Shown here: piece after piece, positions 13,865 to 64,000 of the stretch
Layout of the letters: each line of letters begins with the position of its first letter
Numbering within the stretch: the first letter of the stretch is position 1
From: an uncultured Treponema sp.
Lineage (GTDB): Bacteria > Spirochaetota > Spirochaetia > Treponematales > Treponemataceae
Reading direction: 5' to 3'
NCBI RefSeq assembly: GCF_945873775.1
Contig: NZ_CAMCEC010000009.1
Span: 1 to 64,000, forward strand
DNA length: 64,000 bases
The notes under the pieces: model-generated
What the model was told of the DNA's origin: nothing
Seen by the model: only the letters and a program-made list of their open reading frames with translations
The model's database searches: none
Program-made: the position numbers and the translations under genes

Positions 13865-13870
13865 TTCAGC

Positions 13871-15601
13871 ATGAATGCAAAGAAACTTTCGCTCCTTATA
13901 AACGCTGCTTCTGGAAAATGCGAGGCGGAGCTTGTGATAAAAAATTGCCGTGTTGTAAATCCAATAACGCGGACTGTAAAAAATGCAGACATTGCTGTGG
14001 AGCAGGGATTGATTGCCGGCGTTGGCTCGTACCACGGAAAAACTGAAATTGATGCGCATGGGCTTTTTGCGGTTGCGGGGCTTATTGACGCTCATGTTCA
14101 TATTGAATCTTCAATGTGCACGCCGGAATCTTTTGCTCAGCTTGTAGTTCCAAAAGGCACAACAACAGTAATTGCCGATCCTCACGAAATTGCGAATGTC
14201 AGCGGTTCTGAAGGAATTCACTTTATGATTAATTCCGCACGTCGGGTTCCGTTAAAAGTTCATTTTATGATTCCGTCTTGCGTTCCTGCCACTGGCTTTG
14301 AAGATTCCGGGGCTGCCCTTGATTCAGAGGCTGTTGAAGAGCTTTTGAAAAAGCCTGAAATTTTGGGACTTGGAGAATTGATGAACGCTCCCGGTGTTTC
14401 GTCCTGCGATTCTGAAGTTCTGGAAAAAATTTGTGCGGCAAAAAATGCTCAGAAAATTATAGACGGACATGCGCCTGGCTTGAATGGTTTTTCTTTGAAT
14501 GCTTATTCCGCGGCAGGAATAAAAACTGACCATGAATGCAGTTCTCCACAGGAAGTTTTGGAGCGACTTGAAAACGGAATGTATGTTCTTTTGCGCCAAG
14601 GTTCTGCTGCCCAAAATCTTGCGGAAATTCTTCCTTCTGTAACAAGAGAAAATTCCAGAAGATGCGCAATGTGCACTGACGACAAGCATCCTCAGGATAT
14701 AATTGAATTCGGGCATATAAACGCAAACCTTAAGCTTGCTGTAAAAAACGGGCTTGACTGTTTTACTGCAATTGCAATGGCGACCGTGAACGCTGCGGAA
14801 TGCTACGGCTTGAATGATGTCGGGCTGATTGCGCCAGGATATTCTGCGGACATTGTTCTTTTTAATAATCTTGAGGATTTTGAGGCTGAAAAAGTTTTTA
14901 TAGACGGAAAACTCGCTGCGGAAAATGGAAAGGCTGTTTTTGAAATCCGCAATAGGGTAGACAAGGCTGTAACTCATTCTGTTCATATAAAGCCATTTAT
15001 AATAGAAGATTTAGAAATAAAATTGAATTCTGAAAACGCAAAAGTCATAAGTTTAAAAAATCATGAGCTTGTAACAAAATGCGAAATTCGGAAAGTGAAT
15101 TTGACAAACGGAATTTTTGACTGCAAAAAAAATCCGCAGATTCAAAAACTTATTGTAATGGAGCGGCACAAGAAAAGTGGAAAAATCGGAAAAGGCCTTA
15201 TAGAAAACTATGGAATTCACGGCGGAGCGATTGCCACTACAATTGCCCATGATTCCCACAATATTATTGCCGCAGGAGACAACGACAGCGATATTTTTAT
15301 TGCGGTAAATGAACTTAACAAAATGGGCGGCGGGATTATTCTTGTAAAGCGCGGAACTGTCATTGGCTCTTTGTCTCTTCCGATTGCGGGCTTGATGTCT
15401 GATAAGAATTTTGCGGAAGTAAGCAAAACTCTGAAAAATCTTTTGGAGCTTGCTTGGAATGAGCTTGGAATCAGCCGCGAAATTGAGCCTTTTATGACAC
15501 TTTCATTTTTAAGCCTGCCTGTGATTCCTGAAATAAAACTTACTCCGCGCGGACTTTTTGATGTCAATGAATTCAAATTCACGCCGATTGAAGCTGACTG
15601 A
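13871..15601 (+). CDS. ade: Adenine deaminase
   Basis: This cytosolic amidohydrolase converts adenine to hypoxanthine and ammonia in purine salvage. The 576 residues match the usual family length. Metal-binding and catalytic segments are visible: GLIDAHVHIESSMCTPESFA, IADPHEIANVSG, IIDGHAPGLNG, TDHECSS and MCTDDKHPQDI with the catalytic-type Asp. The C-terminal domain has GIHGGAIATTIAHDSHNIIA and ELNKMGGGIILV. The ATG at 13871 follows a TACAAT box by 6 nt, which implies a leaderless or very short leader. It is monocistronic. Confidence 0.95.
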   Translation: MNAKKLSLLINAASGKCEAELVIKNCRVVNPITRTVKNADIAVEQGLIAGVGSYHGKTEIDAHGLFAVAGLIDAHVHIESSMCTPESFAQLVVPKGTTTVIADPHEIANVSGSEGIHFMINSARRVPLKVHFMIPSCVPATGFEDSGAALDSEAVEELLKKPEILGLGELMNAPGVSSCDSEVLEKICAAKNAQKIIDGHAPGLNGFSLNAYSAAGIKTDHECSSPQEVLERLENGMYVLLRQGSAAQNLAEILPSVTRENSRRCAMCTDDKHPQDIIEFGHINANLKLAVKNGLDCFTAIAMATVNAAECYGLNDVGLIAPGYSADIVLFNNLEDFEAEKVFIDGKLAAENGKAVFEIRNRVDKAVTHSVHIKPFIIEDLEIKLNSENAKVISLKNHELVTKCEIRKVNLTNGIFDCKKNPQIQKLIVMERHKKSGKIGKGLIENYGIHGGAIATTIAHDSHNIIAAGDNDSDIFIAVNELNKMGGGIILVKRGTVIGSLSLPIAGLMSDKNFAEVSKTLKNLLELAWNELGISREIEPFMTLSFLSLPVIPEIKLTPRGLFDVNEFKFTPIEAD

Positions 15602-15652
15602 TATTTTTTTTGTCATTTGTATTTTTCTAAATTTTTGATTATATTATAGTCT

Positions 15653-18058: not shown

Positions 18059-18061
18059 CGT

Positions 18062-18784
18062 ATGAAATTTGCTTTTACTTTTTTTGCCGGATTTTTTGTA
18101 CTTGTTTCTGCTTCTTTTGCATTTCCGTTTAATTCGAAACTTTCGGAGCAGGAGCTTGATTCTGCTTTAAATGGTGAAATTCTTATTCGAAATATCAGCT
18201 CGTACAAAAATATTTGCCTTGACGTGGAAAATGCGGAAGTAAATTCCTGCCTTGATGAATTGAGAGAACTGAATCCGCGTTATTTTGTGGAAGTTCTTCA
18301 GATTAGAAAAGCAAGTGATGGCGATGGAGTTATAAAAAAACTTTCTGAGCTTCTTTCAAATGTTGAGTCTTATACAAAAATTCCTTATTATTCGGAACGC
18401 CACAAGACGACAACTCCGCTTTATTCATACTGCAAAATTCTTTCTGATTCGCAGGCTGATGAAATGCGCAATTTTACTGTTGATATGGAAATGCCTCCTT
18501 TTGAAGTTTACACTGCGGATATTTCTATAAAAACAGATTATGAAAATTTTCTGCTTTACAAATCAAAAAATTTAAATGACATGGCTTGCATTTCTTTTGT
18601 GCGTGTAAAAGAAAATAATCTTAGGTCGATTGTGGTTGCTTTTAAGCATGATGAATATTGGATTATTTATGGAATTGGAGCGGCAAAAGCTCCCAAAATA
18701 AAATTTTTGACACACAGAATTGAAGTTGCCTTTATTTCGCGGGTAAAAGCATTTTGTTCTTTTGCAACATCTTTTTTAGATTGA
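18062..18784 (+). CDS. Exported protein of unknown function, lon operon
   Basis: This 240-residue protein has a typical signal peptide (FTFFAGFFVLVSASFAFPF) and is probably periplasmic. It starts 3 nt after the lon stop codon and must share its transcript. I do not recognise the family with confidence; it looks like a treponeme-restricted family (possibly DUF6675). The sequence has four cysteines and a mixed alpha/beta appearance with no enzyme motif. A strong terminator follows. Confidence 0.7.
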   Translation: MKFAFTFFAGFFVLVSASFAFPFNSKLSEQELDSALNGEILIRNISSYKNICLDVENAEVNSCLDELRELNPRYFVEVLQIRKASDGDGVIKKLSELLSNVESYTKIPYYSERHKTTTPLYSYCKILSDSQADEMRNFTVDMEMPPFEVYTADISIKTDYENFLLYKSKNLNDMACISFVRVKENNLRSIVVAFKHDEYWIIYGIGAAKAPKIKFLTHRIEVAFISRVKAFCSFATSFLD

Positions 18785-18808
18785 AACAATAAGGTTCAGA
18801 AATATAAG

Positions 18809-18847
18809 AAAAGCCGTTTGGAATGTTCCAAACGGCTTTTGTGTTTT
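18809..18847 (+). terminator. Terminator of the lon operon
   Basis: AAAAGCCGTTTGGAA and TTCCAAACGGCTTTT form a perfect 15-bp stem with a 2-nt centre, followed by GTGTTTTT. Being symmetrical it may also act on the minus strand. Confidence 0.9.
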
Positions 18848-18871
18848 TACACTAAAAAAAGTACTTTCAGG

Positions 18872-20882: not shown

Positions 20883-20911
20883 ATTATATCACTTTGAAAA
20901 CGGAAATTCAA
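20883..20911 (-). promoter_or_regulatory. Promoter of the NifU-like/GGGtGRT operon
   Basis: On the minus strand TTGAAT, a 17-bp spacer and TATAAT precede a leader of about 65 nt. The leader contains a TCCGGC/GCCGGA inverted repeat (about 20840-20870). The -35 box overlaps the 3' end of the CotH gene. Confidence 0.75.
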
Positions 20912-22143
20912 TTGCCGGAATATTCATTGCTCATCCATTGCGCGCGTTTTTTTAGGAAGTCAGTCATATAGTCAACCTCACTTTCGTAAGTTTTGCGGTT
21001 TTTCCATCCGGGAGCATGAGGCCATTGCCGTCTTCCAAGATTGTGCCATACTGAATCATTTAGCATTACAAACGGCTTTACATTTTTTGACTCGTTTTCA
21101 AGCCAGTCGAAAGAGGAAATAAGCTTTTGTTTTGTTTCATTCCATCGTTCTGCGACTTTTTCTGCAAAATATTCATCTTCAAAAAGCCGTTTGTACCATT
21201 GGTCTTTGTTTACCCAAAATCCTTCTGGGTCTTGACAGCCGTCGTAGTTTATGTTTCCGCATGAAATATCCATGTCCCAGAGCGGTCCCATGAAAATTTT
21301 CTTTGCCTGTGAGTCATAATAAAAATAGCAGGAAGCTTGAAATTTTGCATCGTGGTTTTTGGTAAATTCGTTTATAAGGTACCAGTCAACAAATGAATCT
21401 TCGTCAATTACACTTTGCCAGCCTTTTTCCGCGGATTTGAAATCAGGTGAAAAAATCACATCTTCGGCATTTTGAATTATCTGCTCCATTTTCTTGTATT
21501 CTGCCTCGGATTTTTGTTCCATTCGTATGCTGATTTTTGTTCCACGTTGTGTGCGGAAATTCCATTCCTTGTTTAGCCTTGAATTTACGGTTGCGAGAAA
21601 TGAGCCTTCCGGGAGCGAAAGTTTTTCGTGTTCAACTTTTTCTGTAACTTGATAAAGTCCGTTGAATTTTCCATTTATAAAAACTGCGGCGAATCTTGCA
21701 TCTGGAGTCCATTTCATTCTGTTCCAGACATTTTTTGCAAGAAAATAAGCGTATTCATTTCTGAGCGAAGTTTTGTCCGCAGTATTCGCCATTAAAATCC
21801 ATTTTTTTGACTGTTTCATTCCAAAAAGCGGAGCGGACTTGTTTAGTTTTAGAAGGTACGGTCTTTTGTAAAGTTCCCTTGTCTGCCATGTTGTGTTTCC
21901 GTGTCCGCGGATTTTGCATGAACCTGAAAACTCTTCGGCTTCGTACATTGCCGTTACATAGTTTGTTTTTGAATTTATTTTTTTGCCTGCCATTGTGTCA
22001 ATGTGCATGACAGAAAGTCCTATTTCTTCGCATTTTTCAGGCGAGATCTGATTTTTTGATGAATTTGAAAACATCATAATCAAAAATAAAGAAAGAATTG
22101 CTAGAATTGCCAAGTGCAAAAAAGAGTTTGTTTTTAATTGCAT
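20908..22143 (-). CDS. CotH kinase family protein (copy 1)
   Basis: This 411-residue protein has an N-terminal signal or anchor helix (LHLAILAILSLFLIMMFSN) and an extracytoplasmic CotH domain, a family of atypical protein kinases first known from Bacillus spore coats. Visible motifs are KIRGHGNTTWQTRELYKRPY, FGMKQSKKWILMANTADKTSLRNE, VFINGKFNGLYQVTEKVE and the catalytic-type GPLWDMDISCGN. It is divergent from the VTC-DUF4956-CotH operon and paralogous to the CotH gene at 23775. The start codon is 5 nt from a TATAAA box. Confidence 0.88.
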   Translation of the reverse strand: MQLKTNSFLHLAILAILSLFLIMMFSNSSKNQISPEKCEEIGLSVMHIDTMAGKKINSKTNYVTAMYEAEEFSGSCKIRGHGNTTWQTRELYKRPYLLKLNKSAPLFGMKQSKKWILMANTADKTSLRNEYAYFLAKNVWNRMKWTPDARFAAVFINGKFNGLYQVTEKVEHEKLSLPEGSFLATVNSRLNKEWNFRTQRGTKISIRMEQKSEAEYKKMEQIIQNAEDVIFSPDFKSAEKGWQSVIDEDSFVDWYLINEFTKNHDAKFQASCYFYYDSQAKKIFMGPLWDMDISCGNINYDGCQDPEGFWVNKDQWYKRLFEDEYFAEKVAERWNETKQKLISSFDWLENESKNVKPFVMLNDSVWHNLGRRQWPHAPGWKNRKTYESEVDYMTDFLKKRAQWMSNEYSGN

Positions 22144-22148
22144 ACTTT

Positions 22149-22177
22149 TTTATAGCATTATTTGCATTTTTCTTCAA
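22149..22177 (-). promoter_or_regulatory. Promoter of CotH copy 1 (leaderless type)
   Basis: On the minus strand TTGAAG, a 17-bp spacer and TATAAA end 5 nt before the ATG. Confidence 0.6.
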
Positions 22178-22194
22178 CTTTTTTGCGGTTTTTA

Positions 22195-22201
22195 CCCCCC
22201 C
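22195..22201. repeat. C7 tract between divergent CotH and VTC promoters
   Basis: Seven C lie 6 nt upstream of the -35 box of the VTC operon and about 17 nt upstream of the -35 box of the divergent CotH gene. It could change with slippage and alter the promoter region. Confidence 0.6.
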
Positions 22202-22207
22202 GTACTC

Positions 22208-22236
22208 TTGACAATGAAGTATAATAGTTGTAATAT
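22208..22236 (+). promoter_or_regulatory. Promoter of the VTC-DUF4956-CotH operon
   Basis: TTGACA (22208-22213), a 17-bp spacer and TAATAT (22231-22236) precede a palindrome that begins 4 nt downstream. Confidence 0.8.
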
Positions 22237-22240
22237 CAGA

Positions 22241-22268
22241 TTTAGTTACCGTTTATTCGGTAACTAAA
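22241..22268 (+). promoter_or_regulatory. 5'-end hairpin or operator of the VTC operon
   Basis: TTTAGTTACCG and CGGTAACTAAA form a perfect 11-bp inverted repeat with loop TTTATT. It begins at the predicted transcription start and ends 18 nt before the ATG, whose ribosome site AAGGAG remains free. It would be either an mRNA 5'-terminal stem-loop or a repressor site. Confidence 0.75.
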
Positions 22269-22286
22269 GGTTTTACAAGGAGTTTT

Positions 22287-23000
22287 ATGAAAGGAAAATA
22301 TCGCCACGAGTTCAAATATCTTTCTCCTGAAATCACGCTTTCTGCGATTGAGCAGCGTATGGATGCGATTCTTTTGCGCGACAGGAACACCGGCGAGAAA
22401 GGTGAGTACGCAATCAGAAGCATCTATTTCGACGACATCTTCAACACGTGCTATCTTGAAAACGAGAACGGCACTGACCCGCGCGAGAAATTCAGAATCA
22501 GAATCTACAACTGTTCGAAAGAGAGAATTTCCCTTGAGTTAAAAAGGAAGGAAAGAGGGATGTGCCTAAAGACTTCCTGCCCGGTTAAGCTTGAGACGCT
22601 CGAGGAGATTATGGCAGGGAAAATCCCGGATTTTACGAGCGAGACTCCTTATCTTCTGAAAAAGCTGATTTGCCAGATGCAGTTCCGCGCGCTTCGCCCG
22701 GTTGAGATTGTCGCCTACGAGCGTGTTCCTTTCACTTATGACGACGGAAACGTGAGAATCACTTTTGACAGGAATCTGCGCTCTTCAAGCAATATCGGGG
22801 ACTTTTTCAACGAGGATGCGGCTTTCCGCTCAATTTTTCCGTTCGGGACAAATATGATTGAGGTGAAGTACGACGAGCTTCTGCCGGACTTTATAAACGA
22901 GACGCTCCAGACAAGCGCGCTGCAGTGGACTTCGTTCTCGAAATATTATCTGTGCAGGAAGTTTGATATTCAGGGAGTTCGCTGCGGATTTAGAGCATAA
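22287..23000 (+). CDS. VTC-domain (polyphosphate polymerase-like) protein
   Basis: This 237-residue cytosolic protein is a bacterial VTC-domain protein, related to the catalytic tunnel domain of yeast polyphosphate polymerase. Basic residues that line the tunnel are visible in KYRHEFKYLS, AIRSIYFDDIFNTCYLENE, EKFRIRIYN, SLELKRKERGMCLKTSC and VAYERVPF, with an acidic NMIEVKYDELLP near the end. It heads the operon with DUF4956 and CotH, a recurrent neighbourhood whose function is not established. Codon use is distinctly more GC-rich than in the flanking CotH genes. Confidence 0.88.
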   Translation: MKGKYRHEFKYLSPEITLSAIEQRMDAILLRDRNTGEKGEYAIRSIYFDDIFNTCYLENENGTDPREKFRIRIYNCSKERISLELKRKERGMCLKTSCPVKLETLEEIMAGKIPDFTSETPYLLKKLICQMQFRALRPVEIVAYERVPFTYDDGNVRITFDRNLRSSSNIGDFFNEDAAFRSIFPFGTNMIEVKYDELLPDFINETLQTSALQWTSFSKYYLCRKFDIQGVRCGFRA

Positions 23001-23051
23001 GATTCAGCAATTTATTTGGTTATTTTATAGAAAGCAAAAAGTGAGGTTTTT

Positions 23052-23726
23052 ATGGGATTCAAGGATATTTTCAAGAAGTCGTTTATTCAGGGATTCACGA
23101 GATACGACGCGACGCCTGAGAACATTATCGTTGTGTTTTTGATTGCGGGATTTTTCGCGCTTTACATTTTCTTTGCTTACAGGCTTTTGACGAGAAGGAC
23201 TTTTTACTCAAAGTCGTTCAACATTGCGCTTCCGGCTTTGGTTATGATTACGGCGGGCGTTATTCTTACGATTCAGTCGAGCGTTGTGATTTCGCTTGGT
23301 ATGGTCGGCGCGCTTTCTATCGTGCGTTTCAGGACTGCGATTAAAGACCCGATGGACTTGGTTTTTCTTTTCTGGGCGATTTCAACCGGAATTATCTGCG
23401 GAGCGGGGCTTGCCCAGATTTCTTGTGTTCTGGCGTTTATCCTGACTGTCGCTCTTTTTGTGTTTGACCGGATTCCTGTGGCGAAAGCTCCGAAAATCCT
23501 TATGGTGAGCGGAAGCGGATACGAGCTTGAAGAGAAAATCATGGCGATTGTAAAAGAATTCTGTAAGTATTACACAGTGAAAAGCCGCGCGCTTTCAAAC
23601 GGAAAAGTGAATCTCGTTGTTGAAATCCGCTCGAAAGACGATTCCGCGCTCTTGCAGAAAGTTGCGAACACGGAAAATGTCGTCTCTTCGACAATCCTCG
23701 CGCACGACGGCGAAGTTACATACTAA
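23052..23726 (+). CDS. DUF4956 membrane protein
   Basis: This 224-residue inner-membrane protein has about four helices in the first 140 residues and a soluble C-terminal domain. GMVGALSIVRFRTAIKDPMDLVFLFWAISTG is the DUF4956 hallmark. It follows the VTC gene by 51 nt. These two families co-occur widely and the pair may form a membrane-associated polymer-synthesis unit, which is inference. The GC-rich codon use matches that of the VTC gene. Confidence 0.88.
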   Translation: MGFKDIFKKSFIQGFTRYDATPENIIVVFLIAGFFALYIFFAYRLLTRRTFYSKSFNIALPALVMITAGVILTIQSSVVISLGMVGALSIVRFRTAIKDPMDLVFLFWAISTGIICGAGLAQISCVLAFILTVALFVFDRIPVAKAPKILMVSGSGYELEEKIMAIVKEFCKYYTVKSRALSNGKVNLVVEIRSKDDSALLQKVANTENVVSSTILAHDGEVTY

Positions 23727-23774
23727 ATTCACTTTTGTGTTTTTATTGCGCATTTTGACAAGGAAGAGCGGGAA

Positions 23775-25130
23775 ATGAAAATTATTCACGGAATAAGAAG
23801 ATATTCGTATGTTTTTGGTCTTTCGCTCTTCTTGCTTGCATTTGGAGCTCTTTTTGCATTTCTTATTTCTTCTGACAGAAAAATTACAGTTGCTGAATGC
23901 AAAAAGCTAGGTCTTCCGATTCTTGAAATTTCTACGGACAAACTTAAGGAAATAAAAAGCAAGGAAAAATATGTAAAAGCTTCATTCACGCTTGGAAATT
24001 CCTCTGAGTATGAAAAGATTTCAGGCGGTTGCAAAATCCGTGGACACGGAAATTCCACTTGGAAAACAACTTTTACACAGAAAAAGCCTTACCTTTTAAA
24101 ACTTGAAAGTCCCGCAAGTCTTCTTGGAATGAAAGGCGCGCGTAAATGGATTTTGATGGCAAACGCCTGTGACCGCTCAATGCTCCGAAATTACTACGCC
24201 GAATATCTTACACACAATGTTTGGAACAGAATGAGGTGGAATCCTGAGTCTCGCTATGTAACGCTTTTTATAAACGGAAAATACCGTGGGCTTTATGGAA
24301 TAACAGAAAAGGTTGAGGTTGCGGAAAATCGCATTGAGTTTGCAGGCGAAGGCTTCCTTGCTGAAATCGACAGCCACGATGGACGACCGTACAGTTTTTC
24401 TACGGATTCAAGGCTACGCTTTAATATCCGCTCGCCAAAGTCAACTTTAGAAAACTACAAGAAATGGGCGGAAAAAATAGAGTCGATTGAAAAACTTCTT
24501 TATTCTGATGAATGGAATGGCGCGGACGGCTACAAGAAATATTTTGACATGGACTCGTTCGTTGACTGGTATTTGCTTGCGGAATTCTCCAAAAACTACG
24601 ATGCGAATTTCTACAACTCTGTCTTTATGAACTATGACTATTCGACGGAGAAGCTTTACATGGGACCTGCATGGGATCACGACATCGGATTTGGGAACAC
24701 TTCAAAAAGTTCGACTACTCCAGGAAGCTATGGTTCGCTCTTAAGCAACAATGCTTGGATTCAGATGTTCAACTTTTTTGATCCAGTGAAGAATTCATCT
24801 GCGGCAAAAGACTATGAAGGATTTTTAATCAACCAAAGCAGCTGGTACAACAGAATGTTTGGTGATGATGAATTTGTTACCCTTGTAAAAAAACGCTGGG
24901 CGGAAACAAGAGAGCCGTTAAAGAAATCTATTGAATGGATTCGCAACCAGGGCAGGACTTTGGATGATTCTGCAAAGCTCAACGATTCTGTCTGGCACAT
25001 AATTGGAAGCGCAAACTGGCCACGTGCGCCGGGCTACCGTTCAAGAAAAAACTACAAGAGTGAAGTTGACTTTCTCGTGGACTGGTGCGAAAAAAGATTT
25101 GAATGGCTTGACAGGATTTTTATGGAATAA
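23775..25130 (+). CDS. CotH kinase family protein (copy 2)
   Basis: This 451-residue protein has an N-terminal membrane anchor (YVFGLSLFLLAFGALFAFLIS) and an extracytoplasmic CotH kinase domain. Motifs parallel those of the first CotH: KIRGHGNSTWKTTF, LLGMKGARKWILMANACDRS, LFINGKYRGLYGITEKVE and GPAWDHDIGFGN. An insertion of about 40 residues follows the last motif (around NTSKSSTTPGSYGSLLSNN). It ends the VTC-DUF4956-CotH operon. The two flanking CotH genes are clear paralogues, so the cluster has duplicated its putative kinase. Confidence 0.88.
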   Translation: MKIIHGIRRYSYVFGLSLFLLAFGALFAFLISSDRKITVAECKKLGLPILEISTDKLKEIKSKEKYVKASFTLGNSSEYEKISGGCKIRGHGNSTWKTTFTQKKPYLLKLESPASLLGMKGARKWILMANACDRSMLRNYYAEYLTHNVWNRMRWNPESRYVTLFINGKYRGLYGITEKVEVAENRIEFAGEGFLAEIDSHDGRPYSFSTDSRLRFNIRSPKSTLENYKKWAEKIESIEKLLYSDEWNGADGYKKYFDMDSFVDWYLLAEFSKNYDANFYNSVFMNYDYSTEKLYMGPAWDHDIGFGNTSKSSTTPGSYGSLLSNNAWIQMFNFFDPVKNSSAAKDYEGFLINQSSWYNRMFGDDEFVTLVKKRWAETREPLKKSIEWIRNQGRTLDDSAKLNDSVWHIIGSANWPRAPGYRSRKNYKSEVDFLVDWCEKRFEWLDRIFME

Positions 25131-41737: not shown

Positions 41738-42055
41738 TTATTCCGCACGCCAGTTTTCCCTGATAGCCTTGTAAAGCTCTTTTCTCATGCTTTCTATAAC
41801 TTTGTCTGTGATTATGCGGATTTTCTGCTCATCTTTTTTTTCGACTTCTGATTTTTTGAAAAGGATTTCAGGTTCAACGTTCAATGCGGCGGCGATTTTT
41901 TCAATTGTGGAAAGCTTGGGCACATTCTTGTAGGTTTCCATAAGCCCGATGTAGCTTGTCGCTGTGTTGCACGCTTCTGCCAGCTGTTCCTGCGTGATAT
42001 GTTTTTCCTTGCGAATTCTTTTTATGTTGTCGATTACTGTCTTTTCTAAATCCAT
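41738..42055 (-). CDS. Xre-family transcriptional regulator
   Basis: This 105-residue protein has an N-terminal helix-turn-helix of the Xre/Cro type (about 5-62: NIKRIRKEKHITQEQLAEAC, SYIGLMETYKNVPKLSTIEK, IAAALNVEP) and a short charged C-terminal tail that may dimerise. It is divergent from the five-gene exported caspase operon; the shared 115-bp region carries three TTGATATA words and an 18-bp palindrome. It is therefore the obvious candidate regulator of itself and of that operon. Confidence 0.88.
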   Translation of the reverse strand: MDLEKTVIDNIKRIRKEKHITQEQLAEACNTATSYIGLMETYKNVPKLSTIEKIAAALNVEPEILFKKSEVEKKDEQKIRIITDKVIESMRKELYKAIRENWRAE

Positions 42056-42057
42056 TT

Positions 42058-42131
42058 TATATCAAGATAGATATATTTATATATAATTTTAATTGATTAA
42101 TTTGATATAGTAGTATATTATTTTTGATATA
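42058..42131. promoter_or_regulatory. Three TTGATATA words between Xre and caspase operon
   Basis: TTGATATA occurs on the plus strand at 42102-42109 and 42124-42131 (22 bp apart) and inverted at 42058-42065, directly next to the Xre start codon. The last plus copy overlaps a TATAAT box (42128-42133). This fits autoregulation and control by the Xre protein. Confidence 0.55.
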
Positions 42132-42138
42132 ATTTTAT

Positions 42139-42156
42139 ATTGGGAAATTTCCCAAT
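42139..42156 (+). promoter_or_regulatory. 18-bp perfect palindrome at the caspase operon 5' end
   Basis: ATTGGGAAATTTCCCAAT is fully self-complementary. It begins 6 nt after the TATAAT box and ends 4 nt before GGAGGAA, so it lies at the predicted transcription start. It could be an operator or a 5'-terminal RNA structure. Confidence 0.75.
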
Positions 42157-42170
42157 TGTTGGAGGAAGAA

Positions 42171-43253
42171 ATGAAAAAACTTGGATGCGTGGCACTTGCC
42201 GCTATGCTTGGATTGATGGTTGTCGGATGTGCGAGTTCACAACAAAAGTTAGCAACGAAAGATATGAAAAATCTTTCATATGAGAATCAGTCTAATGGCG
42301 ATTTGGAGTTAATAAATCAAACACCTTATGATCTTGTTATTTTTGCAGGTTCAATACATCGTAACAATATTTTGGGAGGAATACGCAAAGATGGAGTTGG
42401 AAGTACTAGATTTTTCGATTTTAGTCCTTTTGTCTCTTCAAAGATTGGTGCATTTTTGTGTAGAGCTGTGAAAGCTGATGTTTATGCAGCAAAAGGTGGA
42501 TATGTATCGGAGGAAGATGTAATTTTTGCAAAACTTGTTACTTATGGCGATAATATAAAGTCGTCTTTTAGGATAACAGGTGAAGTTGGAGGAATGTCAA
42601 AGTTGCTTTTTGAAAACGCATCGCCTTATCCTGTAGAACTTCGTCTTAATGGAACTGATGGAGCTGTGCTTACAACTCTGCCACCTAATGCAAAAGAAAA
42701 ATATGTTTATGTAGATTATAATTCAAGAGGATATGTTTACTTTCCTACATATCTTATGTATGACAAAAGCAGCGGAAAAATGAGCAGTATTTCTGCAAAA
42801 GAAGAAGATGGCTTAGTTTCAAGACCAGCAAGAGAAAATGAAACTCCACAGACTGTAATAGTTCCTATGCCGAACAGCAAAATGTATGGGTCAAGAGTTG
42901 CATATCTTACAGTCAGAAATGAAAGTGGACGTGCTTTTATAATGAGAAATGATAATACAGAAATTTTCTCTCAAACCGGAAATACTATGATTAATTCTGG
43001 AGAAACGCTTACATTTGAAGTTGATTCAAAAGAAGAAGGACGTGTTTTCCGTGCTATAAATGCAGATTTCCGTGTCGGAGATGTTTCTAAACGTTATGTG
43101 AAATTTTTTGAAGGTGAGCCAACCGTTTTGAAAGCTGGTGTCGAATATGAAATTTCCGTATTCAATCAAAATGGTCTTGTAAAAGCGATAATTGATAATT
43201 CATCTGAACGTGTAGTCGAGTATAACTTGAATTCTCAACTTGAACTTGAGTAG
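42171..43253 (+). CDS. Exported lipoprotein with repeated Ig/PEGA-like units
   Basis: This is the first gene of the caspase operon. From ATG 42171 (after GGAGGAA) the 360-residue product has a lipoprotein signal ending VVGC (Cys20). An in-frame TTG at 42156 is rejected because it lies upstream of the ribosome site. Three similar units follow: LELINQTPYDLVIFAG, LLFENASPYPVELRLNG and LTVRNESGRAFIMRND, each leading to a beta-rich stretch, which resembles small Ig-like or PEGA-like modules. No enzyme motif is visible. A 13-bp hairpin separates it from the next gene. Confidence 0.75.
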   Translation: MKKLGCVALAAMLGLMVVGCASSQQKLATKDMKNLSYENQSNGDLELINQTPYDLVIFAGSIHRNNILGGIRKDGVGSTRFFDFSPFVSSKIGAFLCRAVKADVYAAKGGYVSEEDVIFAKLVTYGDNIKSSFRITGEVGGMSKLLFENASPYPVELRLNGTDGAVLTTLPPNAKEKYVYVDYNSRGYVYFPTYLMYDKSSGKMSSISAKEEDGLVSRPARENETPQTVIVPMPNSKMYGSRVAYLTVRNESGRAFIMRNDNTEIFSQTGNTMINSGETLTFEVDSKEEGRVFRAINADFRVGDVSKRYVKFFEGEPTVLKAGVEYEISVFNQNGLVKAIIDNSSERVVEYNLNSQLELE

Positions 43254-43260
43254 TTTTTTG

Positions 43261-43292
43261 AAAACTGGATGTTATTTTCAACATCCAGTTTT
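43261..43292 (+). terminator. Intra-operon hairpin (attenuating terminator candidate)
   Basis: AAAACTGGATGTT and AACATCCAGTTTT form a perfect 13-bp stem with loop ATTTTC, followed by GCCTATTTTTG. It may partially terminate after the first lipoprotein gene or stabilise its 3' end. Confidence 0.65.
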
Positions 43293-43315
43293 GCCTATTT
43301 TTGAGTTATTGAAAA

Positions 43316-45109
43316 ATGAAAAGAAATTTTATTCTTTTTATAAGTTTATTCATATTTTTTATCTCATGTAAATCATCAAATTTTCAATTTGGAAAAGAAG
43401 AAATTTCAAAAACTATTCGCATAGAAATTTTTAATAAAAGTGATTTCTCTGTTGAAATTGTTGAGAATAATCCAGATTCCATTTATTCAGTAGCAAAAGT
43501 AGATAAAAATGAATTGCATGTTATTGAGAAAAAACTTTTTGTATTGGACGAGATTACCTATTTTATTTATCCAAGATTCTTGATACCAATTGAAAACATT
43601 GTTATTCCAATAACTCAATACAATGGATTCAGAATAGAAACAAAAAATGGACTCAATCAAAGAATAGAAATTTCATTGATGGATAGTAGTTTTAAAAATC
43701 TTCCATATTATGTTGTTACGAAGAATAATTCAAATAAAGAAATTTCCGTAATGAACTCAAGTTCAAGAACTCCATATATAACAGAGAAAAATACAAAGTC
43801 TATAGTATCTGGTGAGAGTGGAGTTTATTCATCATTAAATAGAGAATTGTATTTAAACAAAAATATTTCAATGCTTGTAGAGCAAAATGGAAAATATTTT
43901 GACGTTCCATTTTATAAACCTGATTCGAGTTTTGTTTACACTTATAGTTTTAACGGAGATAAAATTGTTTTTGAAGACGCTCGTCCGATTGTAAAAATAA
44001 GTGAGCCTCTGTGGAATAAAGATTATTCTGATATGGCGCTTTTAAAGGCCTTTGGCTCAAAAAATGAAGATACTATATTTTGCATTGGAAACAAAATAGA
44101 AGAGGATAAAAATAGAAATAAGTTTTGGAGCGCATATCTTTGTGGCTTTGAAAATACTGGAACAAAAAAATGGGAGTCTAGTTTTTCTGAAAAAAATACT
44201 GATAACAGAATTTATGACGGAATTTTGCTTGAAAACAAGATAATCTGCGTGGGGCAGAGCATGAATGAAAAATCGAATTCTGGTCTTGTGCTTGCTGTAG
44301 ATTCTAAAAATGGTCATATTGATTCGTTTAAGATTCCCGAACTTTCAGGACTTTTTTCTGTAAGTTCATTCGGAGCAAATATTCTAGCAGCTGGATTTGA
44401 CCGTGGTGGTAGTCTTGCTGTTCTGAAGATTTCTTTTGAAACTGAAAATCCGATTTTTTCTTTAGTGTCATTAGAACTTCCTATAGCAGAATCAAATCTT
44501 GTGTATCATGCGTTATGTTTGTATAGCACTGAATCTGATAAATTCTTTTTATTCTGTAACAGACAAAATGAAAATGGGGAACTTCTTTCTTCTATACTAT
44601 GTCAATTTTCTTATGATGGAAAGCTTGTTGCAAAAGAAGATTTTGCAGGAAGTATAAAGTCTGTGTCATGCATGGTTCAGAATAGTAGTGGAGAAATTTT
44701 TGCAGGAGCAGAAACTTTCGGAACTGAAAAACCATCTGCTGTTGTAATAAAGGTTCTGGCTAATGGAAATTGGACTTACTTTTACAGTAATGAAAATCTG
44801 CCATCGTTTATAACATCAGTTTGCCTTTCTGAAAATGAAGATTTTATTGCATTTTCAGGTGTTCAAAATGCATCGGATTTTTACGGACATAATGGAAATT
44901 CATTTTTCGCTGGTATGGATTCTAATTCTACTGAGCAGCTTTGGTTTACTGAATATGAAAAAAAGCAAGATATGCTTCTTACAAATTTTTCTTTAGTACC
45001 TGAATATGGCTTTGCAGGAATTTTCTGTTATACGGATGAGAATGGAGTTATTAAACCTCCGTCTGCCTTAAAAAGAATGACATTAAACGGAAGTGTTCTA
45101 AAAAAATAA
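43316..45109 (+). CDS. Exported lipoprotein with propeller-like domain
   Basis: This is the second gene of the operon. The 597-residue product has a lipoprotein signal (FILFISLFIFFISCKSS, Cys18). Residues 30-230 contain beta-rich units like those of the preceding lipoprotein (IRIEIFNKSDFSVEIVENN). From about 240 onward repeated blades such as LCGFENTGTKKWESSFSEK, GLVLAVDSKNGHIDSFKI and FFAGMDSNSTEQLWFTEYEK suggest a beta-propeller. No catalytic motif is seen. The gene ends directly before the TTG-GAG-GAT segment that supplies the ribosome site of the next gene. Confidence 0.7.
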   Translation: MKRNFILFISLFIFFISCKSSNFQFGKEEISKTIRIEIFNKSDFSVEIVENNPDSIYSVAKVDKNELHVIEKKLFVLDEITYFIYPRFLIPIENIVIPITQYNGFRIETKNGLNQRIEISLMDSSFKNLPYYVVTKNNSNKEISVMNSSSRTPYITEKNTKSIVSGESGVYSSLNRELYLNKNISMLVEQNGKYFDVPFYKPDSSFVYTYSFNGDKIVFEDARPIVKISEPLWNKDYSDMALLKAFGSKNEDTIFCIGNKIEEDKNRNKFWSAYLCGFENTGTKKWESSFSEKNTDNRIYDGILLENKIICVGQSMNEKSNSGLVLAVDSKNGHIDSFKIPELSGLFSVSSFGANILAAGFDRGGSLAVLKISFETENPIFSLVSLELPIAESNLVYHALCLYSTESDKFFLFCNRQNENGELLSSILCQFSYDGKLVAKEDFAGSIKSVSCMVQNSSGEIFAGAETFGTEKPSAVVIKVLANGNWTYFYSNENLPSFITSVCLSENEDFIAFSGVQNASDFYGHNGNSFFAGMDSNSTEQLWFTEYEKKQDMLLTNFSLVPEYGFAGIFCYTDENGVIKPPSALKRMTLNGSVLKK

Positions 45110-45121
45110 TTGGAGGATTTT

Positions 45122-46162
45122 ATGAAAAAATATTTTAGCCTTATTTTGGTTGCGGTTTTGGCAGTTTCAACTTTTGCGCAGAATTCTATTTCTGACGGAA
45201 TACGCCGGTTTGACAATGTGCTTTTTGAAAAACAAATTCAGCGTGCAGAAACTGCAATCGGTTTTATCTATTATTCTGATTCTGAAACCTGTGGCTCTTT
45301 TGTTCCATGGATTAAAAATGAAATAAAACGAGCGGCTGCAAGAACAATGCGTATAAAGATTGTAGATACATCTTCGCTTTCTTCTGAAGGGCAGATTGTT
45401 GCAACTCGCGGTGTTTCTTTTGGGCAGTTGAAAAAGACTTCAGAGCAGAAAAAATATATTATATCGGGAACTTATTTTCCAAATGCAGAAAATGTTGAAC
45501 TGTTTTTGGATTTGAAGGATTCTACAGGTGAGCTTATTGCTTCTGAAAAGATTCTTGTTCCAATGGCGGAAATAAAATCCTTGAATTTGACTTTATTCCC
45601 AAAGAATTCCATGCAGGCAAATCAAATTCTTAAGGATTTCGAAGAGGCAAAAATTGCTTCTGCAAGTGAAATAAAAGTAAGTGTTTCTTCCTTAAAAAAG
45701 AACTCATTTGAAAAACTAAATATTCCCAAACCCGATTACCTTATTACAGCGGCTATGCTCGACAGCGAGGATAATCTTGTGAATATGCTTTATCCGAATG
45801 ACATTGTGAAGTTCATGATTTCTGTGGAGAAGGATTCTTACATTGCGATTCTGTGTATTGACGCTAACGGCGACAAGAACTGGCTTCCTATTGAGAACAA
45901 TTTCATCCGTGCAGGCGAAGTCCGCACTTTTCCTGATTTGAAAAACACAGTTTTTAAAGTTGTTGACGGTGTTTACGGAGCGGAGCAGATTTTGATTTAC
46001 GCTTCAACTTCGGAGAAAGGTATTCCAGAGCAGACTTCTACCGGGAAATATGCAAGAAACGACATTCAGAAAATCACACGCGGAATTATGGCTGTAAAAC
46101 AAAGTTCCGTTGAAAACTACGAAACCAGTGTTTTTAAGATTACGTATACTGTGATGGAGTAA
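45122..46162 (+). CDS. Exported DUF4384 domain protein
   Basis: This is the third gene of the operon, 346 residues from ATG 45122, preceded by GGAGG. A clean signal peptide (YFSLILVAVLAVSTFAQ) directs export. The N-terminal half (about 20-190) resembles proteins that assemble a periplasmic domain before DUF4384. The C-terminal DUF4384 domain shows LYPNDIVKFMISVEKDSYIA and LPIENNFIRAGEVRTFPD. DUF4384 is often coupled to caspase-like or kinase signalling proteins. Its DNA becomes noticeably less AT-rich from about 45725. Confidence 0.8.
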   Translation: MKKYFSLILVAVLAVSTFAQNSISDGIRRFDNVLFEKQIQRAETAIGFIYYSDSETCGSFVPWIKNEIKRAAARTMRIKIVDTSSLSSEGQIVATRGVSFGQLKKTSEQKKYIISGTYFPNAENVELFLDLKDSTGELIASEKILVPMAEIKSLNLTLFPKNSMQANQILKDFEEAKIASASEIKVSVSSLKKNSFEKLNIPKPDYLITAAMLDSEDNLVNMLYPNDIVKFMISVEKDSYIAILCIDANGDKNWLPIENNFIRAGEVRTFPDLKNTVFKVVDGVYGAEQILIYASTSEKGIPEQTSTGKYARNDIQKITRGIMAVKQSSVENYETSVFKITYTVME

Positions 46163-46166
46163 AATC

Positions 46167-48149
46167 ATGTTAAGAATCAAAAAACTTTTTAGCATATTTG
46201 TTATTGCAGGTGTTCTTTCATCTGCTTTCTCTCAGGAAGCCAAAAATGCCTTGCTAATTGCAAATGGTGATTACAGTGAGATAAAATCCTTGAGCCAGCC
46301 TGTGCCGGAAGGCGAGGAGCTAAAATCCGCCCTTGAAAGCATCGGTTTTTCCGTAATGTTTGTGAAAAATGCAAATCGCGATGAAATGTTTGATTCCCTT
46401 TTGGAATTTAAAAACAAGACAAAAAATGCAGGTGGAATTGCGTTCTTTCATTATGGCGGTCATGCAGTTCAGATTGACGGAAAAAACTATCTTATTCCTG
46501 TAAATTCAAAAATCGATGATGAAGGGCAAATTCGCTACAGATGTGTTGAACTTGACGAGGTTATGGACAGTATGACAGGGGAAGCCAATGTGGTTGTTCT
46601 GGATTCATGCCGTAATGATCCATTTCCGAATGGTAAGCATCGCGGCGGAGATACCCGTGGACTTGCAGCTGTAAGCCTCAAACCTAAAAATTCGATTATC
46701 GTTTATTCCGCGGAAGCCGGTGAAACCGCACAGGACGGAGTTTATACTCCCGCGCTCACAAAAAGAATTACGGAAAAAGGCAAGTCTATTGAAGAAGTTT
46801 TAAAGGAAGTCAGAAATGATGTTCTTCGGACTACTGCAGGTCAGCAGCTTCCCGGAGAATACCGTCAGCTTGTAAGCGATGTTTATCTTGCAGGGCGTTC
46901 AAGTTCTTTAGTGAAACAGACAGGCAGCATAATTGTTACTAGCGACATAGAAGGGGATTTGTACCTTGACAGCGATTTTAAATGCCATATAAGGGAAAAT
47001 GGTCCTCAAAAAATAGAAGATTTGCAGTCTGGAAAATATTATCTTGAAATCCGCTCTGGTGAAAAAAAGTTTTTTGAAAATATTTTAGTTGAAGCTAACA
47101 AGACTTTGGATGTTTTTGTAAAGTCGGGTGGAATTAATCTTTCAAGCAATGTTTCTGGTGAAGTTTACTTGAACGGAAAACGTTTTGGATACGTAGAGGC
47201 AGAAAAGGAACTGGAAATTTTAAAACTTGGCAGTGGAATTTATAAGATAGAGATAAAATCGGCAGATGGATTTATCTTTACAAAAAACGTAGAGGTAAAA
47301 ACTGGGGAGAAAACTTCTGTACAGATTCAGGCAACAAAAGTTATGTGCCAGGTAAACAGTCTTGGAAAACTGACTATAAATGGCAAGGATTTTGGAGAAA
47401 TAAAAAAGGATAAAGTTCTTCTTTTGCCTAATGGTGAATATAAATTTTCCTTTGCCATTGGAAAACAAAAACCTAAAGAAGAGAAAATTTCTACTGCTAG
47501 TAAAAGTTCATTTGAAATAAATTTTAAGACTACAAAACTTGCTGTTGAAAGTCTTATTGATGGAAGACTTTATATCGATGGTATTTACTATGGCTATGTA
47601 ACTAAAAATAGAACTTTTAATGTTGATTCTCCTCTTTTTGAGGGAACGTATGATATAGAAGTTGTGTCTGGAAAAACAAGAAACTGGAGCAATTCATATA
47701 TAAGCGAAAAGTCATATTCTGTTAAGTTAAATAATTATAAAAATGATTCATTCTTCAATGTAGATTCTTATTCTTGGGCAAACGCCTCTATAGGATTTGG
47801 ACTATTCGGTGGATATAGAACTGTTCTTGATAATGATAATGTAGGTTTCAATGCAGGTATTAATTTTGAATTGTTTAATTTTGGTAAAATGAAATTAATG
47901 TTTAATTATTATATAAATGATAATGCAGAGAGTTCGTTTGAATTTCCTTTCTTGGAATTGGGAATTTACTTGTTTAATAATAAACGTATTGCTTTTTCTG
48001 TTGGTGCAGGTACAGATTATAGCTCAATGTATTTTCCGTTGAATTTGGAATTACGAATAAATAATAAATTTTTACTCTATGGAGATTATTGTTTAAAATC
48101 AAATGCTGTAAATGTTGGTGTTCAGTATAATATTTTCCGTTTTCTTTAG
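46167..48149 (+). CDS. Exported caspase-like (C14) protein with PEGA repeats
   Basis: This is the fourth gene, starting 4 nt after the DUF4384 stop with GGAG upstream. The 660 residues begin with a signal peptide (LFSIFVIAGVLSSAFSQ). A C14 caspase domain (about 25-235) has the His-Cys dyad: His99 in FFHYGGHAVQ and Cys148 in VVVLDSCRNDPF. About four PEGA-type units follow (255-530; e.g. GSIIVTSDIEGDLYLDSDFK, VSGEVYLNGKRFGYVEAEK, GRLYIDGIYYGYVTKN). The last 130 residues (SYSWANASIGFGLFGGYRTV onward) alternate like an outer membrane barrel. It is probably a surface- or periplasm-located protease or receptor. Confidence 0.82.
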   Translation: MLRIKKLFSIFVIAGVLSSAFSQEAKNALLIANGDYSEIKSLSQPVPEGEELKSALESIGFSVMFVKNANRDEMFDSLLEFKNKTKNAGGIAFFHYGGHAVQIDGKNYLIPVNSKIDDEGQIRYRCVELDEVMDSMTGEANVVVLDSCRNDPFPNGKHRGGDTRGLAAVSLKPKNSIIVYSAEAGETAQDGVYTPALTKRITEKGKSIEEVLKEVRNDVLRTTAGQQLPGEYRQLVSDVYLAGRSSSLVKQTGSIIVTSDIEGDLYLDSDFKCHIRENGPQKIEDLQSGKYYLEIRSGEKKFFENILVEANKTLDVFVKSGGINLSSNVSGEVYLNGKRFGYVEAEKELEILKLGSGIYKIEIKSADGFIFTKNVEVKTGEKTSVQIQATKVMCQVNSLGKLTINGKDFGEIKKDKVLLLPNGEYKFSFAIGKQKPKEEKISTASKSSFEINFKTTKLAVESLIDGRLYIDGIYYGYVTKNRTFNVDSPLFEGTYDIEVVSGKTRNWSNSYISEKSYSVKLNNYKNDSFFNVDSYSWANASIGFGLFGGYRTVLDNDNVGFNAGINFELFNFGKMKLMFNYYINDNAESSFEFPFLELGIYLFNNKRIAFSVGAGTDYSSMYFPLNLELRINNKFLLYGDYCLKSNAVNVGVQYNIFRFL

Positions 48150-48233
48150 TTTTAGATTTTTTTTTATGAAGTAAGTCTACCTTGGTTGTTTTTTTTGCAG
48201 AACTAAGTTTGGAATTCAAATTGGAGTAGAAAA

Positions 48234-51200
48234 ATGAAGAGAAAGATTTCTAAAGTATTGCTGTCGTTGTTTTCCTTTATATCAATAGTAAGCGTTTGTT
48301 CTGCCCAAAATACAGCGAGAGGAATTGTTGCGGAAAAGTCTTTGAGCTTTAAGAATTTTGATGAACCTGAAATTTGGGTTGAAAATATATTGGGTATTAA
48401 TTGCGAGCCAGTAGCTTTTACAAGTGATTTTTCTTGTGTAGTTTTAAAATCTCTTATTGATAGGAAAATTTTTTATATTGCCAATTTTCAAACTGGGGAA
48501 TACTTTTGCATTGGAAAAAAAACAGCTAAGATTTCTAAAGATGAAAAATATCTATGTATTTTTTATTCAAATGAGGATTGTATTGTTTATGATTTAAAAT
48601 CAAAGAAAAAAACTGATATAACTATTGATGATTTCTTGGAAATAGAAGATGTTTCGTATGATGATGAAAAAAGTATTGAAAAGCAGTTAGGTATTGAAGA
48701 TTGGATTAGTGACTGGTATAGCATAAAAGAAAAGGGCAATAGCAAAGTGTATTTAGGCATTGGTGAAGAAAAATTGTATGGAGCTGATTTGACAAATAAA
48801 AAACAATTAGTATTTAATACTAAGTTTTTTTCAAATTATAGACAAGCATATATTTATAATAATAAAAAAGATAAAGAAAATATGAGAAACCCTGACTCTA
48901 TAATTGTTACTACAAAAAATAATGAATTAACCCGTTTTAATCTAAAAGGAAGACAACTGAATGTGTATAAAAATAGTAGTGAATGTTATATTGAAGATTT
49001 TTATCAAGATGACAATTACTTGATAGTTTTTTACACTAATCAACTTCGTGTATACGATATTTTTTCAAGTAAATTAATAGAAAGTTTTATATTGCCAGAT
49101 GATTTTCCATTTTGTTGTGAGTATAAATTTTATTTAGATTTAAGTAATAAAGTTATTTTTGTTTATAATAGTCGTTTTATTATTTGTAAGTATAGCTTTG
49201 ATGTTGAAAAGAACGTATGGAACTATGACGATATGTATTTATCTGACATAGATGGTGATGATCGTTTGCTTTTATGTTATAATGATGAATACGAAGATAA
49301 TCGATATGAGAATATATTATTCTACTCGGCTTATGATGATTTAAATAAACAAGAAAAAATAATAGCTTTTAATCTTGATAATATAAATATTGAATTTGAA
49401 TTTCGATTGAATTTTGATTTAGATAAAACTTTAAAAAAATGTTTCAAAGAAAAATCTATAGGTGAATATTATGGAGTTATTATTTTTAATGAAACTGATA
49501 ATTCTATATTTTTTTTACTTTGTTATAAAGATGAGGATAAAGATAGTTACTATATTGCTTATGTTGAAAAATGTTTTTCTGATGGAAGAAATTCTATAGT
49601 AATTAATTTAGAGAAAGAGAGCTGTAAAGTTATTATTGAAGACTATATTTTTTTATTTACAGAAAATGGTAGTTTTGAACTATATAATATAGAGAATCTA
49701 GCTAAAATTTATTCATATAAAGGTAACGGTAAGTATGTTAAATATACGGTAAATAAAAATAAAATATATCGTTTTGAAGATGAAAAGTTGAAAATTATTT
49801 CTGCATCTGGAAAATTGGAAAAGGTTATATCTAGCTATGAGGAATATTTTAATTCTGAATATTTTCAAGAATTTATTTTTATATCTGCACAAGGTTGTTC
49901 TGTTCGCAATCCTTTTAAATATGATACAAAATATCCAGCTGATAGTTTTTATTTCTTTTCAGAGCTATATCATTTTAATTTTTTCTCCAACGGCGACTAC
50001 CTCACATACACGCCCGAAGGTTTCTTTACTGGCACGGAATGGGCTATGAAGAATCTTGTGCATATTGTTGACAGCATGGATGTAATTGGCATTGATCAGG
50101 TTTATGACAAGTTGTATCGTCCGGATTTGGTTGCGGCTAAAATGCGCGGCGAGGATATTTCAGAATATGCAAAGAAAGTGAATCTTGCTTCGATTGTGCG
50201 CAGTGGAAATGCGCCTACTGTTGCTATAAAAAATCTGCCGGAACTGTCTGACAGCCGAGATGTTACTTTTGATGTGTGTGTGCAGAATACTGGCGGCGGA
50301 ATAGGGAATGTCAGCATTGTCTTGAACGGAAAAACAATCCGGCTTTCAGAAGGCGTTGCGTCGAGCAAGGGCGAGTAGAAAATATTCAGGCATACAGTTA
50401 CCTTGCAAAACGGACAGAATAAAATTGAAGCATTTGCAATGAATTCCGCTGGAATGATAGAGAGCCGTAGGGCTAGTGCAGATGTAAACTGGCAAGGAAA
50501 AACTTCCAAGCCGAATCTGTATGTTCTTACAGTTGCCGTGAACAAGTATCGCGACAAAGATTTGTGGCTTAATTATTGCGTGCCGGATGCAGTTTCAATT
50601 GAAGAATCATTCAAAAAACAGCAGAACGGACTTTACGAGAATGTTTGCGTTTATTCGCTAAAAGATTCCGAGGTCACAAAAGATGGCTTGGAGCAAAAGT
50701 TTAAGGAGCTTTCTTCAATAGTAACTGCTGATGATGTTTTTGTTTTCTTTGTTTCAGGACATGGAACGGCTTACGATGACGGCGACTATTATTTTATTCC
50801 TGTGAATTTCCGCTACACGAATAAGACTGATATTCCGCTTAAGGCAATTTCAAAAAGCGATTTGACGAAAAACCTTTCGCTTATAAAAGCTGGAAAAACT
50901 TTGATGATGCTTGACACTTGCAATTCTGGCGCGTTCTTTGCGGATTCAAATAAGCGTGTAATGGGTGATAAGGGAATATTCGAGCGTCTTTCAAGGGCAA
51001 CAGGTCATGCAGTTCTTGCGGCGGCTTCGGACAGTCAGTCTGCAATGGAAGGCTACAACGGTCATGGTATTTTTACTTATGTACTTTTGGACGGACTTGC
51101 GGGAAAGGCGGATTCAAATGATGATGGCTTTGTATCTTTGACAGAACTTTCAAGCTATGTAGAAAATCAAGTGCCTGAACTAAGCTATGAAAAATGGGGA

Positions 51201-51269
51201 TATGAGCAGGTTCCACAGAAAGAGCTGCGCAGGCAGGATTTCCCTATTGCAGAAAAACTATCAGAGTAG
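48234..51269 (+). pseudogene. Exported propeller-caspase protein interrupted by in-frame TAG
   Basis: This is the fifth gene of the operon. One reading frame of 1,011 codons is broken only by TAG at 50376-50378 (codon 715). The first part (714 residues) has a signal peptide (LLSLFSFISIVSVCSAQ) and an Asp/Tyr/Asn-rich propeller-like region. After the stop the same frame continues with an Ig-like end (NGQNKIEAFAMNSAG) and a C14 caspase domain with His843 (FFVSGHGTAYDDGD) and Cys896 (MMLDTCNSGAFF). From about 49985 the DNA is much less AT-rich, so the gene looks mosaic. It is a nonsense pseudogene, unless the stop is read through or the C-terminal part is restarted at TTG 50403. Confidence 0.82.
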
Positions 51270-51275
51270 CGATGT

Positions 51276-51303
51276 AAAAAAAATGCCGGATTTCAGTCCG
51301 GCA
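51276..51303 (-). terminator. Terminator of the galactan operon
   Basis: On the minus strand TGCCGGA and TCCGGCA form a 7-bp stem with loop CTGAAA, followed by eight T. It lies 12 nt after the GH53 stop codon. Confidence 0.9.
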
Positions 51304-63809: not shown

Positions 63810-63872
63810 ATTTTATAGAACTCAAAAAGCAGGGCAAACGCATTATAAATAATTTAAGTAAAGTTTGCGCGA

Positions 63873-63974
63873 AGGAACGGTTCCTGGGGCAAAAACACTC
63901 TGATTGTTGCGACCGCGTGAGCGGGCAATTCTATAGTTACTTTGCAACAATCAGCGTGTAGCGCATTATTGCGC
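63873..63974. other. Multi-hairpin structured region after leuA
   Basis: Three nested or adjacent stems are visible. ACACTCTGATTGTTGC (63895-63910) pairs with GCAACAATCAGCGTGT (63944-63959) at 15 of 16 positions. Within it CCGC-GTGA-GCGG (63913-63924) forms a GNRA-type tetraloop hairpin. GCGC-ATTATT-GCGC (63961-63974) and AGGAA-CGG-TTCCT (63873-63885) flank it. It could be a structured RNA, a 3' UTR element or a repeat; no gene is seen from 63810 to the window end. Confidence 0.55.
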
Positions 63975-64000
63975 GATTTTGAACCAGAAAACCGTGTCTG

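Follow-up and report, generated by a model that had tools for sequence, protein, structure and literature searches.

Caspases of the C14 family are lysine/arginine-specific, and work on those of bacteria has centred on cytosolic enzymes of defence or cell death. Exported orthocaspases are already known. A 2012 survey (PMC3501461) described 46 metacaspases with an N-terminal helix, maybe a signal peptide, and considered action outside the cell. Exported WD40-caspases like the product of gene E below occur in many phyla, with E-type proteins in Delongbacteria, Geobacter, Sulfurimonas, Nitrospirae and others. The view of an earlier note on this DNA that export in itself is unusual for bacterial caspases is not supported. 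Exported orthocaspases and metacaspases of the WD40-caspase and Sel1-caspase kinds (PMC3501461) have in common with the proteins described here a His/Cys dyad, WD40, Sel1 or TPR partners and, in part of the family, export signals. The locus studied here differs from them in that exported caspases, DUF4384 and variable lipoproteins are assembled in one regulated mosaic island, and no such locus is described in the literature searched.

Three other groups of systems are similar in part. DUF4384 is recurrently fused to cyanobacterial orthocaspases, in 23 cases (PMC8283722). DUF4384 and C14 are coupled in those proteins (PMC7475262, PMC8283722) as they are here, but there the two are fused in cis, whereas here they are separate exported proteins. 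The closest named design is the EACC1-caspase system, a membrane conflict system of two genes described by Kaur et al. (2020; PMC7159879). It likewise combines a constant partner gene with a caspase that carries variable domains; in our locus, by contrast, the whole set is exported. Its caspase model, NF047832, is the nearest named NCBIfam caspase model. The E caspase piece scores 66.9 bits and D 35 bits against a cut-off of 140, which places both outside the EACC1-type caspases. No match to the EACC1 single-transmembrane protein was reported among the island proteins scanned, in libraries that may lack an EACC1 model. TPR-CHAT proteases and DGR-diversified or ternary conflict systems (PMC10907252, PMC7159879) share with our locus a caspase-like output and diversified sensor modules. 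Unlike in the DGR-diversified systems, diversity here arises by module replacement and not by point hypermutation, and the island has no reverse transcriptase. A local diversity-generating retroelement was rejected on the location of the reverse transcriptases: RVT_1 matches are found only on contigs C17 and C36, and the island is on C9. The two reverse-transcriptase-like genes (RVT_1) elsewhere in the genome are at G000:C17:42443-43021 and C36:8923-9531.

The window is the whole stretch of treponeme DNA analysed, 64,000 nucleotides long. Its island comprises five genes, A to E, and a divergent regulator gene, with the following features.

41738..42055, minus strand: xre, a 105-aa Xre/Cro-CI type HTH regulator, divergent from the island (HTH_3, E=4.7e-13).
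42056..42155, no strand: control region shared by xre and A, a candidate Xre operator; its three TTGATATA-type sites are at 42058 (inverted), 42102 and 42124.
42171..43253, plus strand: gene A, lipoprotein, lipobox VVGC.
43261..43292, plus strand: hairpin between A and B, terminator-like or attenuator-like, 13 pairs with a T-rich tail.
43316..45109, plus strand: gene B, lipoprotein of 597 aa with a lipobox, no Pfam match.
45110..46162, plus strand: gene C, exported, C-terminal DUF4384 (E=4.4e-11).
46167..48149, plus strand: gene D, exported C14 caspase (Peptidase_C14, E=2.9e-29); it also has a PEGA-like region and a C-terminal part whose fold is unproven.
48234..50378, plus strand: first part of gene E, with signal peptide, propeller-type region and linker, closed by an in-frame TAG at 50376-50378.
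50379..51269, plus strand: second part of gene E in the same frame, with the end of the linker domain and a C14 caspase domain (E=1.7e-16), dyad intact.
51284..51303, minus strand: terminator-like hairpin between E and a convergent GH53 gene, at the island end.

This set, put forward in the earlier note as a candidate undescribed system, has no counterpart among the systems described in PADLOC or NCBIfam, and we found no paper on such a locus among the non-subscription papers searched. PADLOC gave only its generic 'caspase' model, weakly, among its system proteins, plus generic HTH matches for xre, and no full named system. A known defence system was rejected, since the generic caspase stands alone and no other defence gene lies in the island.

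The divergent Xre gene, also proposed earlier, is borne out by the HTH_3 match. The shared operator region proposed with it stands as a candidate, with three TTGATATA-type sites in intergenic DNA that is nearly identical in the window and in two close relatives, G084 and G145. The xre product is 97-98% identical in both relatives. For gene A, the ATG at 42171 behind GGAGG is more plausibly the start than a TTG. The N-termini of C, D and E are signal-peptidase-I-like, and A and B carry lipoboxes; these calls are heuristic. The claim that all five genes are exported thus stands for the N-termini of A to E, but the caspase half of E is cut off from its signal peptide. The operon layout fares similarly: the genes are consecutive and rightward, but a single transcript is not assured, given the hairpin at 43261-43292. 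Hairpins were called from a consensus scan only, which found 9 such sites where 5.9 were expected.

Comparison with the close relatives revealed a mosaic of fixed and variable modules. In G145, where the locus is on one large contig, the window aligned from 18.8 to 64 kb (~45 kb) outside the island. Flanking ORFs were 99-100% covered with 88-96% DNA identity, apart from one small overlapping edge ORF (88% covered). Coverage within the island was 8% for A (signal peptide only), 0% for B, 42% for C (the DUF4384 end), 33% for D (the caspase), 18% for the first part of E and 100% for the E caspase part. In G084 the aligned blocks are different. C, D and B beyond its 5' part match at 88-91%, no alignment was obtained for mature A, the beginning of B or the greater part of E, and an ARMT1-like gene is inserted relative to the window. 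The fixed modules are xre with the operator and the first-gene signal peptide, the DUF4384 end of C, and the catalytic domains of D and E. Mature A, the B 5' part, the C N-terminus, the D C-terminus and the E propeller are exchanged wholesale between close relatives. The dN/dS ratio is 0.05 for xre, does not exceed the range 0.05-0.06 for DUF4384 or the E C-terminal region, and is 0.19 for the D caspase, indicating that these fixed parts are under strong purifying selection.

The lipoproteins illustrate the exchange. In A, the signal peptide and lipobox are fixed and the mature protein is replaced between relatives, with the breakpoint just after the lipobox. The DNA from xre to the signal peptide in G084 is ~95% identical to that in the window. 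The A protein of G084 is 72% identical to that of L072 and 70% to that of L075 but only 32% to window A. Being closer to A of two other species, one of them in another genus, it is read as the product of allele exchange between species. Some of the sensor-type modules are in this way replaced by alleles that distant species also have. In B, the stretch up to 43930 is divergent and the remainder has ~91% DNA identity in G084. In G145 and G137 the A-B pair is swapped for two LPP20/FlgT-like proteins (weak matches). A and B had been thought to share small Ig-like units; none is detectable by BLASTP (best E=2.1), and we dropped the reading of the two as paralogues.

Gene C carries the DUF4384 domain that the sequence had suggested. 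Its homologues are 37/74, 42/70 and 24/67% identical in their N-terminal/C-terminal parts, and the variable N-terminal domain gave weak LpoB-like matches in 2 of 12 homologues. The C protein, used as a DUF4384 query, has matches in 19 of the 146 genomes of the genus, and PF00656 is present in 35. Across these 146 genomes, DUF4384 is a constant genomic partner of C14 caspases: 23 of the 24 domains above the curated cut-off have a C14 caspase no more than 6 kb away (chance ~1% each), and the single one without such a neighbour is at a contig end. DUF4384 lies within 6 kb for 39 of the 58 C14 matches listed, and C14 within the same distance for 10 of 22 DUF4384 matches below the cut-off. Three kinds of DUF4384 carrier are found beside caspases: C itself, a transglutaminase-like protein, which adjoins D-type caspases in G044 and G110, and an anti-sigma-like transmembrane protein (below cut-off). 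The last belongs to a separate operon type (L121, L122, L123, L124), in which an ECF sigma gene is followed by the anti-sigma-like protein, beside an exported C14 caspase of ~730-800 aa. The anti-sigma-like proteins have one hydrophobic transmembrane-type stretch with the DUF4384-like domain beyond the membrane; their DUF4384 matches fall below the Pfam cut-off in G099, G042 and G129, and the protein of G143 is similar by sequence only. We infer that DUF4384 serves the caspases as docking partner, gate or substrate. Its pairing with caspases and the hypervariable mosaic are the more telling features of the locus, which the earlier note could not see.

Gene D is predicted to encode the sole intact exported caspase of the window island. 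Its C14 domain scores 102.9 bits against a cut-off of 21.4, which makes it an orthocaspase by domain content, and the dyad was correctly given earlier as His99/Cys148. The PEGA repeats named there are present as a weak match. The nearest solved structures are of MALT1 paracaspase (E=4e-24, residues 23-227). The two share the caspase fold and only that domain, MALT1 being eukaryotic and cytosolic. Searches of solved structures with B, C and the E C-terminal region gave no match. The structure model of D is of insufficient quality for fold searches, with a mean pLDDT of 49, and ~32 or less in the barrel region, so that the C-terminal barrel is unconfirmed.

The earlier note had tied the idea of a conserved set to its gene order in relatives and to the catalytic residues of its homologues, and both are retained. 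The order recurs in other species and in a second genus: xre-A-B-C-ARMT1-like-E in L072 (a goat-caecum MAG of another genus, the same locus as G517/L141), A-B-C-D-E-E' in G143 / L075, where one additional small lipoprotein gene separates B from C, and A-B-C-ARMT-D-E in G084. The dyad is kept in 12/12 aligned E-type and 12/13 aligned D-type relatives. The D-type exception (L055:6643-7437, in G022) keeps the His, has lost the catalytic Cys and lies beside an intact paralogue; it is possibly a pseudo-enzyme regulator. Export-type N-termini were found in 30/30 homologues of C, 16/16 of D, 6/6 of B and 52/64 of E. These counts are heuristic, with some genomes counted twice, and that for E takes in contig-cut or truncated copies.

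Accessory genes vary between islands. ARMT1-like (PF01937) proteins with hydrophobic membrane-type mid-stretches are encoded directly before E or D in several islands. These island-linked proteins are 790-930 aa long (L052:6618-8990, L053:3207-5999, L059:5558-8281, L062, L064, L072:5604-7964), and their nearest solved relatives are eukaryotic damage-control phosphatases. The family also has shorter, standalone ARMT1 genes at other places (L150, L151). One related island, in G044, resembles the TPR-CHAT systems in encoding, directly after a D-type caspase gene, an exported 1807-aa protein with TPR, a CHAT protease domain and 14 Sel1 repeats (L060:9363-14786). CHAT is another caspase-superfamily protease.

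Gene E is split by its TAG into a 714-aa N-terminal part and a second part in which the same frame reopens; a genome search shows the same TAG. The caspase half has its first possible start at a TTG (50403), has no signal peptide and scores 61.1 bits for C14 against the cut-off of 21.4. Of the two intact-looking caspases claimed earlier, D stands; E is interrupted, and its His843/Cys896 had been counted through the TAG, although the dyad itself is present. Intact E copies in relatives have a sense codon at the TAG position. The E caspase part is 95% identical in G145, and dN/dS relative to G145 is 0.06 on either side of the stop, suggesting that the lesion is very recent, is a sequencing or assembly error, or is tolerated because the pieces still act. 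The signal peptide is missing from the E of G145, as is most of its propeller. What was found of E in G084 is the final 89 bp, on an adjoining contig and preceded by unrelated sequence with stops. The catalytic domain was not found in the G084 assembly, whose contig gaps make it the weakest case. Since E is broken or cut in the window, in G145 and apparently in G084, it is likely dispensable. Clear WD40 propellers are present in E homologues; that of the window E is unconfirmed, the model of its N-terminal part, with a mean pLDDT of 51, being likewise of insufficient quality. In L073 the WD40 units are near-identical in tandem, with a 217 bp exact repeat, and L072 has an array of 126-bp units; these repeats suggest propeller turnover.

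The state of E raises the question whether the window island is a decaying remnant. The TAG and the lack of an ARMT1-like match in the window's own genome could both be taken as loss of function, as could the damaged E genes of G145 and G084 and the 5'-truncated ARMT1-like gene of G145. However, there is no lesion in genes A to D, in xre or in the operator, C and D are conserved, and the equal dN/dS on both sides of the stop points to a very recent lesion or a sequencing error, so we regard decay as rather unlikely. A missing ARMT1-like gene was also rejected as the driver of E loss, because no clear rule emerged: G143 has an intact E without ARMT1, and G084 has ARMT1 with an apparently broken E.

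We propose, with a probability of about 45%, that the hypervariable island is an Xre-controlled, exported caspase surveillance system of the cell envelope, with exchangeable sensors, a DUF4384 partner and a caspase output. The exchangeable lipoproteins (A/B or the LPP20 pair), the C N-terminus and the propeller would be sensors for a changing outside partner. This partner might be a protein of a phage, a rival or a predator, or else a signal from the host or from envelope damage; nothing in the data points to phage in particular. DUF4384 would dock with or gate the caspases. Upon sensor binding, the caspases would cleave envelope proteins, thereby killing or remodelling the cell itself or disabling the intruder, and Xre would hold the island low until it is triggered. 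As E is interrupted, only D could deliver the predicted exported caspase activity in the window genome. If so, caspase signalling would also operate in the bacterial envelope, through a conserved set of exported proteins that has a constant partner and hypervariable sensors. DUF4384 would gain a testable function in caspase docking, in gating or as a substrate, and the role of exported bacterial caspases would become directly testable in treponemes.

Fast sequence change can also fit surface antigens without an immune role. The lipoproteins and propellers could be variable surface structures of a kin-recognition locus, and the caspases could process or shed them, with no death or defence output. 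The lipoproteins do lead the island, and the diversity lies in exported binding-type modules while the catalytic domains are constant. However, other operons repeatedly pair an exported caspase with a DUF4384 anti-sigma-like protein, which points to signalling, and the replacement of A/B by the quite different LPP20/FlgT-like pair in G145 and G137 argues against a constant caspase substrate among them. We therefore consider this explanation improbable, on a par with decay.

An exported analogue of the cytosolic caspase defence loci, in which envelope attack by phages or rivals leads to caspase self-killing, is somewhat less likely still. The patchy presence of the DUF4384 query among the genomes, the allele exchange, the E lesions in close relatives, the occurrence of TPR-CHAT and the turnover of WD40 repeats would all be in keeping with abortive death. 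On the other hand, the island proteins scanned include no NTPase, nucleic-acid sensor, SAVED, gasdermin or CRISPR part, and the PADLOC match is generic and weak. Cargo of a mobile element or phage was rejected: there are no relatives of the E C-terminal region or of D in viral contigs and no E in phages, and plasmids have only distant generic caspases. Together with the lack of another defence gene in the island, this leaves anti-phage defence without direct support. A polymorphic toxin system was rejected as well. Such a system has a constant N-terminal trafficking part, a variable C-terminal toxin and an immunity gene downstream. C and E have the opposite layout, with a constant C-terminus and a variable N-terminus, and no immunity-like gene was seen. 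In A and D the N-terminus is constant and the remainder varies, but no toxin domain can be recognised there. About as improbable as abortive death is a protease module for envelope stress or housekeeping, regulated by Xre or ECF sigma and serving the quality control of lipoproteins and the outer membrane, for although DUF4384 occurs on transmembrane anti-sigma-like proteins beside exported caspases and the LpoB, LPP20 and FlgT-like domains (all weak matches) belong to envelope-assembly families, the island is hypervariable and confined to a minority of genomes, unlike housekeeping genes.

Returning to envelope surveillance, a wider and more doubtful proposal is that spirochaetes, and perhaps didermes of other groups, have an undescribed class of innate surveillance in the periplasm or outer membrane, which the island represents. 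A dedicated DUF4384 partner would gate the exported caspases, and the sensors would be exchanged between species by recombination at fixed anchors (operator with signal peptide, DUF4384, catalytic domain). A parallel branch would be wired to ECF sigma/anti-sigma through DUF4384. We offer this only tentatively.

Other observations concern the DNA around the island. Window positions 1-18857 are without a match in the G145 stretch that continues the aligned region, suggesting a rearrangement or insertion boundary near 18.8 kb. About 170 bp at 63830-64000 also match a second place in G145 (~window 33.5 kb) and represent a dispersed repeat. A cluster of genes for a CotH kinase, a VTC domain and DUF4956, with a second CotH gene, is located at 20908-25130.
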